In this document: positions 4,388 through 16,228 of the stretch, one piece after another
How the letters are laid out: every line of letters starts with the position of its first letter
Position numbering within the stretch: position 1 is the first letter of the stretch
Virus record (IMG/VR): IMGVR_UViG_3300027969_000323
Location: 1 to 29,376 of that record
Length of the DNA stretch: 29,376 nt
From: a virus
Direction: 5' to 3' (one strand)
Notes under the pieces: generated by a model
Seen by the model: only the letters and a program-made list of their open reading frames with translations
What the model was told of the DNA's origin: nothing
Database searches by the model: none
Made by a program: the position numbers and the translations under genes

Positions 4388-4419
4388 TTGTTTATCTCCT
4401 TTCAAGAGATGTTTTATTT

Positions 4420-4939: not shown

Positions 4940-5201
4940 TACGTGCTCCAATCGCAAATGATAAATCATAAGTTAGTTTATATAGTTCGCCATATGTGTC
5001 TAGGACACCTTCCCAATACTTACGTTCCATGGAGTCCATGGCTTCCCCTGATTCCTCTTCGGTTTCTTGGGCCAACGTTAGTTCTTGTTCAGCAATTAGC
5101 ATGAGGTTCTTTAGTTCCCCGTGCATGATGTCAAGGCCCGTTACTCCAGCATTGACCATGCGTTGCAAATGGGGCGGGAGCCCAATATCTTCTGCATTCA
5201 T
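4929..5201 (-). CDS. helical phage protein with LPPHLQRMV motif, 90 aa
   Basis: The N-terminus (IGLPPHLQRMVNAG) resembles a short motif, LPPHxQRxV, common at the start of small phage proteins of unknown role. The rest is a helical, Glu-rich domain (ELTLAQETEEESGEAM). GAAAGG lies before the ATG, part of the repeated start-associated sequence (here TAACGAAAGG), and promoter P1 lies 30-50 bp upstream, inside the preceding gene. Confidence 0.6.
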   Translation of the reverse strand: MNAEDIGLPPHLQRMVNAGVTGLDIMHGELKNLMLIAEQELTLAQETEEESGEAMDSMERKYWEGVLDTYGELYKLTYDLSFAIGARNEA

Positions 5202-5386
5202 TATTCATACCTTTCGTTAGTAGAGTTCATTATATCAGTAGCCACTGACATCAAATGCTCAGTTGCATATATTTGTCCTGGGATATCAATTACATTGATA
5301 GATTCAGGATTCATTTCTAAGTCCTGGTTAAGACTAATTAAATGAAGTTTCATATACTCCATAAAGGTACTAGTCTTGGTAACCAT
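5201..5386 (-). CDS. protein of unknown function, 61 aa
   Basis: A helical protein with an amphipathic first half (STFMEYMKLHLISLNQDLEM). Its last 16 codons coincide with promoter P1 (MSVATD is the translation of the promoter), so the C-terminus is constrained by regulatory DNA. AGAGGG precedes the ATG and the start overlaps the preceding gene by 17 nt. No homologous family is recognised. Confidence 0.5.
   Translation of the reverse strand: MVTKTSTFMEYMKLHLISLNQDLEMNPESINVIDIPGQIYATEHLMSVATDIMNSTNERYE
5229..5250 (-). promoter_or_regulatory. promoter P1 of the TGTCAG-N10-TAYAAT class
   Basis: On the minus strand TGTCAG (5250-5245), 10 bp, TATAAT (5234-5229). It lies inside the 3' end of the gene 5201-5386, so the next gene gets an extra internal promoter. 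No CRP-type operator is seen upstream. Confidence 0.7.
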
Positions 5387-5725: not shown

Positions 5726-6495
5726 GCTTCCACCTTTTCTGTAGTTTCCAATAATACACTATGGGTCTGACATTCTTTCATAGCCTCTTCATCTTGCCAA
5801 GAACCTTGGTTGCATTCTGAGCAAAATTCACCACAGTCATCTTCACAATAATCTAATGTATTAAATGACTGACATGCATAGCAGCGATTCTCATATTCTA
5901 GAATCTCCTTGACATCACCACGGACAATTTCATATTCCCCACCCCAACCTGTTTCTTCTTCATACTCTAATGTGAGCAGGCAGTTCGGAACAAGATTAGA
6001 TAGTTTAGTTAAGATAGTTACAGCAGGTGACCAAGCAGTTTCATATTTGTAGACAAGCCAATTGTCATCACCTTCTGACTTATATTCAATTAGTTCTGTT
6101 TCAGGATATTTATCATCATCTGATACAGCCACATCCCATTTGGTTCCCCAATTAGTATTATTCCATGAATACCAATCCTTCTGAGTTTTAGCATGGGCAA
6201 CCTCTTGTGCAAACCAATTAGGGTCTTTCATGTCTGCACCTGAACGTGTAGGCTGGCAGGCATATTCCTCATCAGTAATACCTTCATCTTTATATGAGTG
6301 GATATTAAAGAAAGCAAAGACAGGATTAGAATAAGTTACTTCTTTAATTTTGGTGGGGAAACCCATAGATGAAATATCACCCATACCATGAGTCTCAATA
6401 GCCAATGTAAAAGGCTTATTCAATCTATCTTTAATCATATCTATCTCAGACTTAGGTCCTTGAATAGTTAATGTGTTATAACACCAATTTGGCAT
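5722..6495 (-). CDS. Api92-like phage protein with C-terminal zinc-finger region
   Basis: A 257-residue protein beginning MPNWCYNTLTIQGP, the hallmark N-terminus of the phage Api92-like (ferredoxin-like) family. Family members share a Trp-rich domain around residues 60-190, seen here as NTNWGTKWDVAV and YETAWSPAV. The C-terminal 55 residues add six cysteines (C205, C208, C217, C221, C225, C228), which would bind one or two Zn2+. The start at 6495 follows CAACGAAAGG; upstream in-frame codons belong to promoter P2. The molecular role of the family is unknown. Neighbours downstream are co-transcribed with 1-4 nt overlaps. Confidence 0.75.
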   Translation of the reverse strand: MPNWCYNTLTIQGPKSEIDMIKDRLNKPFTLAIETHGMGDISSMGFPTKIKEVTYSNPVFAFFNIHSYKDEGITDEEYACQPTRSGADMKDPNWFAQEVAHAKTQKDWYSWNNTNWGTKWDVAVSDDDKYPETELIEYKSEGDDNWLVYKYETAWSPAVTILTKLSNLVPNCLLTLEYEEETGWGGEYEIVRGDVKEILEYENRCYACQSFNTLDYCEDDCGEFCSECNQGSWQDEEAMKECQTHSVLLETTEKVEA

Positions 6496-6522
6496 TTTAT
6501 ATCCTTTCGTTGATATAAGAGA

Positions 6523-6603: not shown

Positions 6604-6638
6604 TGGAATTTTCAGGGTTTTTACTTGACATCCGTAAA
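6604..6638. repeat. intergenic repeat copy C
   Basis: GGAATTTTCAGGGTTTTT followed about 10 bases later by TCCGTAAAAC. It keeps the CAGGGTT...CGTAA core but lacks DnaA-box-like flanks. It sits between promoter P2 and the terminator of the predicted small RNA. Confidence 0.6.
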
Positions 6639-6669
6639 ACAAATATGTTACCCTCAGTCTTTTGTGGGC

Positions 6670-6698
6670 AAAAAAAATGCCCCCCGTTTTCACGGGGG
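6670..6698 (-). terminator. strong intrinsic terminator
   Basis: CCCCCG (6681-6686) pairs with CGGGGG (6693-6698); the minus-strand product continues as GCATTTTTTTT. It ends the predicted small RNA and isolates promoter P2 from upstream transcription. Confidence 0.85.
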
Positions 6699-6787
6699 AG
6701 CTAATGATAAGGCTGCCTGGATCTCCAACGAAAGGAATAGATCCGCTTTACTTAGCGACTTGCGGGACACGCTTAACTAGCCGCACC
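6670..6787 (-). ncRNA. candidate small RNA with an anti-ribosome-binding-site loop
   Basis: This gene-free stretch encodes, on the minus strand, an ordered set of structures. UGCGG...CCGCA forms a 5' stem. GGAUCU-AUUCCUUUCGUUGG-AGAUCC forms a perfect 6-bp stem with a 14-nt loop (6719-6744). A GC-rich terminator with eight T's follows (6670-6698). The loop contains CCUUUCGUUG, the exact complement of the start-associated sequence CAACGAAAGG found upstream of many genes transcribed from the same strand. Its promoter is not clear: a TATGAT at 6798-6793 lacks a convincing -35, and processing from the upstream operon is possible. No ATG follows the plus-strand copy closely, so it is not simply a ribosome site for a divergent gene. 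Confidence 0.55.
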
Positions 6788-6800
6788 ATATCATATTCTT

Positions 6801-6825
6801 CTATTAAAACCAGGACCGTAGTCCT
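6801..6825 (-). terminator. short hairpin with T tract after the gene 6833-7207
   Basis: AGGAC-(4 nt)-GTCCT at 6812-6825; on the minus strand it is followed by GGTTTTAATAG. It is a weak terminator or attenuator, so some transcripts may read on into the predicted small RNA. Confidence 0.5.
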
Positions 6826-6832
6826 AGATTAA

Positions 6833-7207
6833 TTATACCATAGCAGGCTCTTCTAGTTGACTGTATTTATTTACAAATACATCCAGCGAAGTTTCAAATA
6901 CAATTGTCTGCAGGTCTTCTTCAAACAATGTAAACGTTGCCTTGTTCCAGTCGATTACTGGTACCTTGTGCTCGTTGTCAGCCAATTCATTTATTGTAAT
7001 GCCCCAACCTGTTTCGCTAGGCCATTCATCATTAATCAATTGACTAATAGCAATACGTGTTGCATATGATTCATCGGTCCACCTAGGACGTGCATGCTCT
7101 ACAGCATTTGCTAAATTCTCAAGCATGCGATGTCCAGCCCAGTGTCCATACAAGTACACAGTATCGCCCTTGCGGTCTCTGAATCCGAAGTTTGCTCTAT
7201 CTCCCAT
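6833..7207 (-). CDS. conserved small phage protein (MGDRANFGF type), 124 aa
   Basis: It begins MGDRANFGFRDRKGDTVYLYGHWAGH, a pattern I associate with small conserved proteins of actinobacteriophages of unknown function. A central helical region (LENLANAVEHARPRW) and an acidic beta-rich C-terminal half follow. AAAGGCGG precedes the ATG, which lies two bases after the previous stop. It is the last gene of the operon from promoters P3/P4. Confidence 0.6.
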   Translation of the reverse strand: MGDRANFGFRDRKGDTVYLYGHWAGHRMLENLANAVEHARPRWTDESYATRIAISQLINDEWPSETGWGITINELADNEHKVPVIDWNKATFTLFEEDLQTIVFETSLDVFVNKYSQLEEPAMV

Positions 7208-7749: not shown

Positions 7750-8192
7750 TAGCATTCCCTAACGTGACATACTTCTTGGTCAGCAATTTCAATACGACCT
7801 GATTGTGAATCAACATAAAGATTATCTGTAATTTCATCTTCGATGTCGTAGTCTTCAAGTAAATCTAATTCAATAGTTCCGCTAACTTCGATAGTTGCAG
7901 TCCACTCAACTGTTCGAGTAAGTTCGATACCTAGCGCTTCAGCAATTGAACGAAGTGTATCTTGGTCTGAAGAATCAGCATATGCCTCGGCAATGATATC
8001 TTTAGCAGTGTTAATTTTATCTTGAAGAACATTGTTTTGCTTTTGTGCTTGACGTCCGTTATGCAAATCCCACTCAAGAGATGTTATCTTTGATGTTGCA
8101 TATTCAGCATCAGAGTAGCCACGAATTACTTTGTATGTAACTACTAGGTCTGAGTTGTATGATGCAGGCACTTCGTTGATTGTTGTTTCCAT
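7749..8192 (-). CDS. acidic protein of unknown function, short form, 147 aa
   Basis: The start at 8192 is preceded by CAACGAAAGAGG and by promoter P3. The protein has a helical middle part (WDLHNGRQAQKQNNVLQDKINTAKDIIAEAY) and an acidic beta-rich C-terminal part (ELDLLEDYDIEDEITDNLYV) that ends in CHVREC. The same frame is open upstream to a second start at 8384, which gives a longer form. The function is unknown. Confidence 0.6.
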   Translation of the reverse strand: METTINEVPASYNSDLVVTYKVIRGYSDAEYATSKITSLEWDLHNGRQAQKQNNVLQDKINTAKDIIAEAYADSSDQDTLRSIAEALGIELTRTVEWTATIEVSGTIELDLLEDYDIEDEITDNLYVDSQSGRIEIADQEVCHVREC

Positions 8193-8384
8193 TTTTTCCT
8201 CTTTCGTTGTTGTTGAAGGTGTAATTGTAGCATCGACCACTGACAATAAGATGCAATCCGTACCGCATCTGCATGTGAGGTCCATCACACCTGCTGGCCA
8301 TCCGTAGCCATCTTTGAATGTATATTCAATTAATGCATCGCAGTCACCAGGACATATCCAAGTGTACTTCTGATAGTTGGTCAT
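7749..8384 (-). CDS. long form of the same protein with N-terminal zinc-binding domain, 211 aa
   Basis: In frame with the gene at 7749-8192 and without a stop between them. The extra 64 residues hold WICPGDCDALIEYTFKDGYG and DLTCRCGTDC (C11, C15, C38, C40, C44), a likely Zn-binding unit. The ATG at 8384 lies six bases after the TACAAT of promoter P4, so this mRNA would be leaderless. Promoter P3 and its operator are embedded in the codons of the extension. Alternatively the N-terminal unit may be a separate ancestral gene that lost its stop codon. Confidence 0.45.
   Translation of the reverse strand: MTNYQKYTWICPGDCDALIEYTFKDGYGWPAGVMDLTCRCGTDCILLSVVDATITPSTTTKEEKMETTINEVPASYNSDLVVTYKVIRGYSDAEYATSKITSLEWDLHNGRQAQKQNNVLQDKINTAKDIIAEAYADSSDQDTLRSIAEALGIELTRTVEWTATIEVSGTIELDLLEDYDIEDEITDNLYVDSQSGRIEIADQEVCHVREC
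8224..8289 (-). promoter_or_regulatory. promoter P3 with a perfect CRP/GlxR-type operator
   Basis: On the minus strand TGTCAG (8245-8240), 10 bp, TACAAT (8229-8224). The operator TGTGA-GGTCCA-TCACA lies at 8274-8289, centred 64.5 bp upstream of the inferred start, and falls inside codons of the long form. The leader carries CAACGAAAGAGG. Confidence 0.75.
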
Positions 8385-8635: not shown

Positions 8636-9640
8636 TTAGAAAGTTGCAACCATTCGATACAACTTATTTTTTTCTGCGGTTAGAACTGGGTCGAAACCAG
8701 ATGCACCCGCCATAAGAGTTTCACCATTACCGCGACCAGAACGATAATAATCAAGGCGCTCAGTAAGTGCATTAAACGCACCCCACTTTGTTCCCTTGAT
8801 TGTAGCGTTAGTTGGTGAGTTATGATAAAGGTCATCAAGAAGAACGACTTTGTTTTCCCACTTCTTAATTGCGCCCTTAGCATCTTTTTCAGGCTTTGGA
8901 TAAATTGTCTGAATCAACTTTGAGAATTCAGCATCAGTAATTGCTTGAGAATAAAGTGCTTTTGCTTGAACTTCGAATTCATCGAAATATCCAAGAGCAA
9001 GCCCAAGAGTTTCACGAGCAACTTGAATTCGTCCTTCAACAGATTGTGTGTGACGAATTTTGAAAGATTGCTTTGCATTACGCATTGCAAGATTCAATGT
9101 GTTTTGGCAAACAACACGAACAGGTGTAACCGCTGCTTGAACAGCAACAGAACCATCGTGAGATGTCCAAACAATTAGATAAAGTTTTGTTTCGTCATTA
9201 GCGCCTTGAGGGTCAAGAACCATTGTGCGGGGAATATCTACAGTTCCAAACACAACTTTGCCCTTTTTCAATGAGCCAGCGGATTCCCAACGGCAATCTG
9301 CATTGGCATCGTGAATTGCATCAGCAAACGCAAACAATTCTTCATTTTGCACAGGCTTATAACGCTTTCCAACAGTAGCGAGAACATCAGTTTCGCCATT
9401 GAAAGGGTTGTCACGAATGACAAGAGATGCGTTAGAAACATCATTCCAAGATTCTGAAATGTGGTCAGTTAGTGGAGATAAGCGAACATTCCAATTTGCT
9501 AACTTTGCTTCTTCAAGCATTGTTGAGGTTGTAACTTCCTCATCTTGTGAGAAGATACGATTTGCAAGGTTGTGCCAAGCAGGTGCGCCACGAAGAGCAA
9601 ACGCAACTTCGCTGCCATTAGTTTCTAGGTTGTGAGCCAT
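8636..9640 (-). CDS. DUF932 family phage/plasmid protein
   Basis: A 334-residue protein of the DUF932 (phage/plasmid-like TIGR03299) family. Family-type segments include AHNLE near the start, RGAPAWHNL (17-25), ATVGKRYKPVQNEELFAFAD, a WTSHDGSVAVQAAVTPVRVVCQNTL segment around the middle, and KWGAFNALTERLDYY near the C-terminus. Its biochemical function is unknown; it is common in phages and conjugative plasmids. The start at 9640 follows TCGAAAGGAAATAAAT; in-frame codons further upstream translate promoter P5 (MSVPP) and are not part of the protein. It is preceded by a long intergenic region and forms a single-gene unit. Confidence 0.85.
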   Translation of the reverse strand: MAHNLETNGSEVAFALRGAPAWHNLANRIFSQDEEVTTSTMLEEAKLANWNVRLSPLTDHISESWNDVSNASLVIRDNPFNGETDVLATVGKRYKPVQNEELFAFADAIHDANADCRWESAGSLKKGKVVFGTVDIPRTMVLDPQGANDETKLYLIVWTSHDGSVAVQAAVTPVRVVCQNTLNLAMRNAKQSFKIRHTQSVEGRIQVARETLGLALGYFDEFEVQAKALYSQAITDAEFSKLIQTIYPKPEKDAKGAIKKWENKVVLLDDLYHNSPTNATIKGTKWGAFNALTERLDYYRSGRGNGETLMAGASGFDPVLTAEKNKLYRMVATF

Positions 9641-9671
9641 ATTTATTTCCTTTCGATTGGTTGATTGTGCA

Positions 9672-10590: not shown

Positions 10591-10628
10591 TTGTTATTAC
10601 CTTTCGTTGGTTGGTTGTTGTTATGAGT

Positions 10629-11419: not shown

Positions 11420-11448
11420 AACTTACCTTTCGTTGGTTGAATAAGAGT

Positions 11449-12734: not shown

Positions 12735-12762
12735 GAGGGGCCTTTCGTTGGTAGTTGAGAGA

Positions 12763-13732: not shown

Positions 13733-13853
13733 TAGTGGCACCTTCTTTCGTTGTTGTTGATACGGACATTGTAGCAGATAGCACTGACATGGCTTCCGCT
13801 TTTGAGGCTTGTCGTGTCGCTAACACATGAGCCTTGAATTCATCGAGATTCAT
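13722..13853 (-). CDS. micro-protein overlapping promoter P11, 43 aa
   Basis: The start at 13853 follows CAACGAAAGG and promoter P12. The protein begins MNLDEFKAHVLATRQASKAEA; its C-terminal half (MSVLSATMSVSTTTKE) is simply the translation of promoter P11 and the next gene's leader. The N-terminal half is probably the selected part. It may be a short regulatory peptide or a decaying gene. Confidence 0.45.
   Translation of the reverse strand: MNLDEFKAHVLATRQASKAEAMSVLSATMSVSTTTKEGATNGN
13768..13789 (-). promoter_or_regulatory. promoter P11 of the TGTCAG-N10-TACAAT class
   Basis: On the minus strand TGTCAG (13789-13784), 10 bp, TACAAT (13773-13768). It lies inside the coding frame of the gene 13722-13853. 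No CRP-type box is seen. Confidence 0.7.
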
Positions 13854-13884
13854 TTGGCTTCCTTTCGTTGAAGTTATAGTAGAC

Positions 13885-14484: not shown

Positions 14485-14666
14485 TACGCTACCTCTGCCA
14501 TTTCTGCTAGTAGTGCGTCTACTTGCTCATCTGTTAATTCATCTTCTAATTCATCTTCATCTTGCTCTACCTCTTCATCTAGGTAAGCGTATGCGTCTGC
14601 GACATCTGCCTGAATAGTGTCCCACTTAGAGAGGCTATTGGTGCGTGTGTTGTATGCGTATGACAT
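14484..14666 (-). CDS. acidic helical protein, 60 aa
   Basis: A strongly acidic protein: DEEVEQDEDELEDELTDEQVDALLAEMAEV forms the C-terminal half. Such runs may mimic DNA or bind a basic host protein, as in phage anti-restriction factors, but there is no direct evidence here. AACGAAAGAAG precedes the ATG and promoter P13 drives the operon of which it is the first gene. Confidence 0.6.
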   Translation of the reverse strand: MSYAYNTRTNSLSKWDTIQADVADAYAYLDEEVEQDEDELEDELTDEQVDALLAEMAEVA

Positions 14667-14700
14667 TTATTTCTTCTTTCGTTAGTTCGTTATGTATGGA

Positions 14701-15328: not shown

Positions 15329-16228
15329 ATGGAACATATACTACTTACCAAAGATGTAATCCTTTTTAAAAACACATTAAAGGATCCAGCTGCAACTCAG
15401 GATTTTATTATACGCTCTAAATCCAATGGTGACAAGTGGTTTGGAAATTGGGAAGACTGGCGTCCATGGGGTCAATATTCAAAAGCTCATCCATTTGAAG
15501 ATCCTAGTTATATGCAAGATGAATCTGAAGGTGCGGAACATCTTAAAGAATTTTTAAATATCTTTTGGGATGCAATGAAAATTTACAAAGATAACTATTT
15601 AAATCCTGAATATTTTAACTTGATAGATGAAGATGCAAATATTCCAACATCTATGGAAGATATGAGACGTCATCCAAGCTATTTTACTGCTGACGTAGTA
15701 ATACTTGAATCAGAAAATACTGATCCTCAAAAACCACTATCAATGGAATACCATCAAGACCGTAGACCCTGGTTTGGCGGAACTCCACATATATTTAATT
15801 TTAATATTTATACTAACGACAACTACGAAGGTGGAGATATTTTAATAATCAATACCGAAGATGCAGAAAAATCAACTTACAAAGACGATGCTGGCGTTGA
15901 AAGAGAATGCCTAATGATTGATGCACCAGTAAGATATAAAATGGAAGCTGGGGATGGTTTACTATTTAGAACAGATGTTTATCATGCAGTTCTTCCAGTA
16001 GTAGGAAATAAATTCTATGTTCGTCAATTTTTAACAGCAGCTCCAAAACAAGAATGGTTTGATACAAAGGCTTCTATGTCTGCAGAAGATTTTGACCTAC
16101 TACTAAAAGAAAAAGAAAAAGAAGGATTTGCTAAATATGGATGGCAATGCAGAATTTATAATTCAAAAGAAGAAATTGGCAACGGTGGAAACGATAACCA
16201 GATAGTTTGTGTGGTAAAAAGTGTTTGA
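15329..16228 (+). CDS. 2OG-Fe(II) oxygenase-like protein
   Basis: A 299-residue protein with the iron-binding triad of 2-oxoglutarate-dependent dioxygenases. H142 and D144 lie in EYHQDRRPW, the distal histidine H219 in VYHAVLP, and R232 thirteen residues later (FYVRQFL) would hold 2-oxoglutarate. YEGGDILI (166-173) matches the strand before the distal half of the jelly roll, and EAGDGLLFRTDVYH is the usual approach to the second histidine. The reaction would be oxidative hydroxylation of an unknown substrate. AGGGA precedes the ATG. The downstream gene is a paralogue that overlaps by 8 nt. Confidence 0.8.
   Translation: MEHILLTKDVILFKNTLKDPAATQDFIIRSKSNGDKWFGNWEDWRPWGQYSKAHPFEDPSYMQDESEGAEHLKEFLNIFWDAMKIYKDNYLNPEYFNLIDEDANIPTSMEDMRRHPSYFTADVVILESENTDPQKPLSMEYHQDRRPWFGGTPHIFNFNIYTNDNYEGGDILIINTEDAEKSTYKDDAGVERECLMIDAPVRYKMEAGDGLLFRTDVYHAVLPVVGNKFYVRQFLTAAPKQEWFDTKASMSAEDFDLLLKEKEKEGFAKYGWQCRIYNSKEEIGNGGNDNQIVCVVKSV

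Follow-up and report, generated by a model that had tools for sequence, protein, structure and literature searches.

The window analysed here, 29,376 nucleotides of the IMG/VR virus record IMGVR_UViG_3300027969_000323, carries on its minus strand a hairpin at 6719-6744 (GGATCT-ATTCCTTTCGTTGG-AGATCC, with a stem of 6 bp and a loop of 14 nt) whose loop is complementary to a sequence found just in front of many genes of the same window, which raises the question of whether the hairpin belongs to a small RNA that acts on the mRNAs of those genes. An initial annotation had proposed exactly this, and the hairpin and the leader matches that it described are all present. The 10-mer CAACGAAAGG occurs without mismatch on the minus strand at 6503-6512, 10600-10609, 11426-11435, 12741-12750 and 13861-13870, just 5' of the starts at 6495, 10590, 11419, 12734 and 13853; its sole plus-strand copy in the window, at 6726-6735, is the complement that lies in the loop. 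Matches of 9 nt precede the starts at 5201, 8192 and 13732, and one of 8 nt precedes 14666, again as annotated. The argument that such an arrangement is improbable by chance also holds, with 9 matches of at most one mismatch observed against 1.33 expected (0 of 100 shuffles); the first observation is thus confirmed, and it is stronger than originally noted.

The predicted pairing of the loop with these leaders is strong. For the five exact copies the duplex energies are -17.3 kcal/mol (gene at 6495, DUF1281_C, Api92-like), -18.3 (10590), -18.2 (11419), -18.0 (12734) and -19.1 kcal/mol (13853). The near-exact minus-strand leaders give -15.9 kcal/mol for TAACGAAAGG at 5210-5219 (gene at 5201), -14.0 and -12.9 kcal/mol for CAACGAAAGA at 8200-8209 and 13744-13753 (genes at 8192 and 13732), and -13.4 kcal/mol for AACGAAAG at 14676-14683 (gene at 14666). 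A tenth predicted target is the DUF932 gene at 9640, whose bulged minus-strand leader match AATCGAAAGG at 9649-9658 reaches -17.3 kcal/mol, so that the ten span -12.9 to -19.1 kcal/mol. Pairing against the leaders had been suggested as a check by the annotation, and the mean energy over nine leaders (the bulged DUF932 match is omitted from this control) is -16.3 kcal/mol, versus -5.9 ± 1.3 kcal/mol for 1000 shuffled loops, none of which is as low. The 16S tail on the same leaders gives -6.0 to -14.3 kcal/mol, and the loop is the stronger partner for 8 of the 9. One non-target, the plus-strand leader of the gene at 15329, pairs with the loop at -14.8 kcal/mol; the remaining leaders tested are all weaker than -12 kcal/mol. 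GAAAGG is the only Shine-Dalgarno candidate in the target leaders, and the predicted helix covers it together with bases upstream, in line with the annotation. A small conserved gene of the same cluster, at 4405 on the minus strand, has a leader TCTTGAAAGG without a match to the loop and, in its leader and the 60 nt upstream, a different promoter with the dyad TTTACAA..TTGTAAA.

The hairpin lies between a conserved -10 and a terminator. The predicted transcript runs on the minus strand from 6826 to 6670 (~155 nt) and comprises the conserved core and the terminator behind the conserved -10; its 5' end is placed near 6825 from the position of the -10, and its 3' end within the T run. The -10 element, TATAAT at 6832-6837 (minus), is kept in relatives and shares bases with the stop codon of the gene before it (6833-7207); a sigma-70 -35 was not found upstream of it. 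A GTCR box lies 11 nt before this -10 in most relatives, and is missing in the window type and in class-4 RNAs. A terminator-like 5' hairpin, P0 (GGAC-UACG-GUCC, 6810-6827, minus), is different or missing in divergent relatives. The annotated terminator at 6670-6699 (minus) consists of a terminator-like hairpin at 6680-6699 followed by eight T at 6670-6677. The annotated size of 90-120 nt, on the other hand, should be revised: given the 5' hairpin and the TATAAT, the transcript is likely to be ~155 nt long. The overlap of this -10 with a stop codon, and the gene that comes next at 6495, would also suit an element that works in cis and not in trans, as the 3' UTR of the gene before it or as a leader or attenuator of the gene at 6495; however, the terminator stands before 6495, relatives keep the TATAAT and the loop has matches at ten genes rather than one, and we regard this reading as very improbable.

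Pattern searches returned seven IMG/VR contigs besides that of the window with a near-identical core, and a protein search with the upstream gene product (MGDRANF...) gave 80 loci. Homologs of the RNA were detected with nhmmer in 88 of the 88 IMG/VR loci first collected, from viral or window sources (several loci are the same contig twice), and additional searches yielded far more divergent copies. Most homologs sit directly 3' of one conserved gene. Identity among the closest relatives is 98.9-100% in the core, compared with 76-84% in the adjacent gene and 62-76% in the terminator region, where the terminator hairpin is swapped for unrelated hairpins; such replacement is expected of an independent transcript. 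Just past the terminator (window 6630-6670, minus), nearly all relatives retain the string GCCC(A/G)CAAAAGACTGAGGGTA despite this replacement.

The comparative fold of the core, all on the minus strand, consists of a closing stem P1 (6786-6793 with 6705-6712), P2 (6779-6784 with 6755-6760), a conserved single-stranded linker UAAGUAAA (6747-6754) and the hairpin P4 (6739-6746 with 6715-6716 and 6719-6724), which carries the seed loop (6725-6738). A covariation search in related phages, another check proposed by the annotation, bears this fold out: stems P1, P2 and P4 score 0.365, against 0.139 ± 0.010 for shuffled alignments (0 of 500 reach the observed value). Across 47 distinct rows 91% of cells pair, and both sides change in 13 of 22 pairs (118 cells), including 5 of the 8 pairs of P1 and, somewhere in the family, all 6 upper pairs of P4; in P2 every cell is paired, and one pair appears as GC, AU, CG and UA. 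Fitting the alignment to the model works in favour of structure, but once the partner strand is slid the score falls to 0.05-0.09, so that an alignment artefact is unlikely. From an unfitted MAFFT alignment, RNAalifold recovered P2 with double-sided changes, and did not recover P1 and P4. Folded singly, the sequences have energies no better than those of shuffles (z -0.6 to -1.6), and for the full window transcript the minimum-energy structure is unlike the comparative fold. Indels in the P2 loop disrupt any reading frame common to the classes, which removes a short coding ORF as an explanation and argues that the element is non-coding. Judged by its comparative record, the element is a structured non-coding RNA family, whose paired positions are kept through double-sided changes in many homologs.

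No described family fits this RNA: in Rfam, the window matches at gathering score are tRNAs only, the best sub-threshold match is suhB (15.1 bits versus 41), and the C4 model (RF01695) does not match the element. An identity as tmRNA or tRNA was rejected, ARAGORN and Rfam giving only tRNA-Asp and tRNA-Ile in the window. A nucleotide search of INPHARED returned chance matches only, and scans of bacterial genomes for the upstream protein, and for the RNA core (GTDB), gave none, or pattern hits without model support, so that no host was identified; the phages that carry the RNA appear to be uncultured freshwater (lake) phages of actinobacteria.

The core is conserved beyond what pairing with leaders would need. 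The linker UAAGUAAA and the junction sequences GGUGC and AGCAGCC show little or no variation across the family, an excess over antisense requirements that suggests a tertiary fold or a protein partner. A pairing of linker with loop (AAGUAA with UUACUU) was considered and fails in some classes. The same near-invariance would fit an RNA whose main role lies elsewhere, with a protein or ribosome partner bound through linker and junction and with the leaders acting as a sponge or pairing incidentally. Yet the 8-mer of the loop, which matches the leaders, varies no more than the junction does, and the RNA and the leader set occur together across genomes (below), and we therefore hold such a role to be rather improbable.

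The 56 distinct cores were classed by a pattern that itself requires CUUUC, and seed conservation was therefore judged on the model alignment (47 distinct rows). The window seed, CCUUUCGUUG at 6726-6735 (minus) within the P4 loop, is complementary to the leader motif and contains the 8-mer CUUUCGUU, which is kept in 46 of the 47 distinct sequences, whereas the stem letters on either side of the seed and the base just 5' of it vary. The 8-mer complements AACGAAAG without mismatch; in the leaders this core is conserved and the flanking positions vary. The exception is a single contig (L008, close to L001), in which the loop reads CUUUCGAUGG and the leaders are unchanged. The annotation had held that loop and leader changing independently in related phages would speak against its proposal, and this was seen in that single variant, the other 46 sequences all retaining CUUUCGUU. 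Loop and leader each vary so little that no clean co-change is seen. In class 4, where the loop is AAUUCCUUUCGUUUG, the leaders AACGAAAGGAA are far more uniform than in other classes (G 98%, A 81%, A 84%, n=64), a trend that is confounded with lineage; outside class 4, position-by-position co-change of loop and leader flanks is unconvincing.

Seed conservation also bears on whether the loop is simply a copy of the 16S rRNA 3' end that titrates mRNAs or imitates a ribosome site generally. The window class, with GGAUC...UCCUUUC...GGAG, does resemble the well-known bacterial 16S tail, but the other classes keep CUUUCGUU only, and GUU(GG) has no 16S counterpart. With the likeness confined to the window class, we rejected this explanation as having very little probability.

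The RNA and its putative targets occur together. Each of ten near-complete genomes (107-120 kb) has exactly one copy of the RNA and 9-12 sites of the form AACGAAAG-N4-11-ATG, nearly all of them on the RNA's own strand and close to its gene, so that the leaders form a repeated, start-associated sequence placed just upstream of many starts and mostly in one orientation. Six relatives without the RNA have 0-4 such sites (Mann-Whitney p = 0.00025, for genomes that are phylogenetically non-independent and with some of the RNA-less records being fragments). Leaders of ACGAAAGG type are also found in RNA-less actinophages, namely DSL-LC01, a metagenome-assembled phage with the predicted host Actinomycetia (PMC10611076), and Karimac, and the leader therefore does not depend on the RNA. 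In the more distant DSL-LC01 (L090, 11600-24300), ~20 genes have ACGACGAAAGGACAA-type leaders and share a near-identical promoter, TTCTAAAG-N3-GTTATAATNGAATCA; an exact antisense copy to these leaders was not found there. The examined parts of Streptomyces phage Karimac contain a few CGAACGAAAGG-type leaders and give no match to the RNA model. The leader style may predate the RNA, which would later have adapted to the leader. In Karimac (NC_048724; L092, 5337-6031), a homolog of the gene upstream of the RNA is followed by an annotated tmRNA gene, a different RNA occupying the same gene position.

The leaders belong to single-gene units, each with its own promoter. In 70 of 85 leaders a GTCA(G) box precedes a TANNAT -10 by exactly 11 nt, and no other spacing was seen; this promoter stands upstream of most of the window target leaders (minus) and also occurs in L002, L026, L028, L035 and other loci. 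This distance is too short for a sigma-70 -35, and the box may define a phage-specific promoter class. Between the -10 and the leader motif lie anywhere from 3 to 29 nt (10-16 nt in most), and the motif is therefore best read as an element that acts at the RNA level. The position of the leaders just 3' of strongly conserved promoters would also suit a phage regulator that binds the sequence as a double-stranded DNA operator, reversed in the RNA gene, in which case its place in a loop would be coincidental. We rejected this as highly improbable: the spacing from the -10 is variable, and within the RNA gene the sequence is invariably part of the apical loop of a hairpin that covaries.

Together, the covariation, the invariant 8-mer, the replacement of terminators and the co-occurrence with the leader set strongly support a real small RNA with loop-to-leader pairing, so that the interpretation given by the initial annotation is partly supported. 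The element has one property expected of a trans-acting base-pairing sRNA, an unpaired seed that complements several mRNAs encoded at other loci. Computation directly supports the fold, seed conservation, pairing potential and co-occurrence of RNA and leader set; transcription of the RNA, its pairing in the cell, repression and the timing of that repression are inferred. Our preferred explanation, to which we assign a probability of roughly 70%, is that a trans-acting antisense RNA of ~155 nt blocks translation initiation across an early-gene regulon. In this model the RNA would begin with a 5' hairpin, continue with a core in which P1, P2 and P4 form a three-way junction, and end in an intrinsic terminator, and the P4 loop would display CUUUCGUU(GG) for pairing with AACGAAAG in the short 5' leaders of ~10 single-gene transcription units, which lie in the same leftward, presumably early, gene cluster as the RNA. 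The resulting helix of 8-13 bp would mask the Shine-Dalgarno sequence GAAAGG and exclude 30S loading, and so would lower translation of the whole target set at once. Translational repression is the natural expectation since GAAAGG and the bases upstream lie within the helix. Its targets being early-type single-gene units clustered around its own gene, the RNA would serve as their common off-switch or buffer. The opposite outcome, in which the RNA pairs with the leaders and activates or protects the mRNAs, for instance by masking an RNase site near a short 5' end, draws on the closeness of the motif to the predicted mRNA 5' ends (10-16 nt past the -10 in most), where a duplex could protect; but the helix covers the sole Shine-Dalgarno candidate of these leaders, and we consider activation unlikely.

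As a class, the mechanism of a base-pairing sRNA is already known. The bacterial RNAs RNAIII and LhrC act on multiple targets with a loop-exposed, pyrimidine-rich seed directed against the ribosome sites of several mRNAs; they are host-encoded and have looser targets, whereas here a near-identical tag is found on leaders in the same phage genome. Among phage RNAs, C4 pairs at the ribosome site. C4 (phages P1/P7, RF01695), P22 sar and lambda OOP are, like the RNA described here, phage-encoded antisense RNAs directed at phage mRNAs (PMC2864571, PMC12197685), with C4 and sar acting on an antirepressor gene; these RNAs mainly address one operon or mRNA and are often cis-encoded (PMC12197685), in contrast to one RNA that would reach ~10 separate units through a shared label. 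Phage T4 shuts off many early mRNAs at the ribosome site through RegB and RegA (PMC3014915), which are proteins (an endonuclease and a translational repressor, respectively) and not a non-coding RNA, and a 2010 review stated that no small trans-acting regulatory RNA from T4 had been functionally characterised (PMC3014915). If correct, our model would provide an RNA-only counterpart to this protein-based early-gene shut-off, and a simple tag-plus-antisense control of many genes at once. Within the open-licence PubMed Central literature and Rfam, the RNA family and a regulon linking one RNA to a start-associated sequence appear to be new.

The closest analogy is to the Start-Associated Sequences (SAS/ESAS) of cluster K mycobacteriophages, known since 2011, for which Pope et al. 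left open whether the partner is an RNA or a protein (PMC3203893) and whose role is still unresolved in later work (PMC11373665). Like the leaders studied here, SAS are repeats that span and exceed the ribosome site, lie a few nt before many non-structural genes and often have their own promoter; the SAS consensus GGGATAGGAGCCC and the leader core AACGAAAG are unrelated in sequence, and the two are analogous, not homologous. No partner RNA has been reported for cluster K in the open-licence PubMed Central literature, whereas for the present label the proposed partner is an RNA that is conserved and covaries, a concrete candidate for the reader of an SAS-like label in that its invariant loop 8-mer complements the label. 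It is possible, though we put it forward tentatively and with more doubt than confidence, that the SAS of actinobacteriophages are address labels read by a dedicated anti-label RNA, the same logic perhaps having arisen separately in cluster K1; this would explain the purpose of SAS repeats, with one structured RNA controlling a dispersed gene set. Pope et al. described a single reverse-oriented SAS copy in four K1 phages (PMC3203893), and in Anaya (JF704106; L352, 34839-34900, right end) we find that a GC-rich hairpin holds the lone reverse SAS in its loop, CCTCCTATCC. The architecture resembles that of the RNA studied here, which is a lead and not proof. The CCTCCTATCC loop hairpin was not found in Pixie, which carries many SAS, or in Keshu; the same hairpin is present in Angelica, Validus, Peanam and Enkosi.
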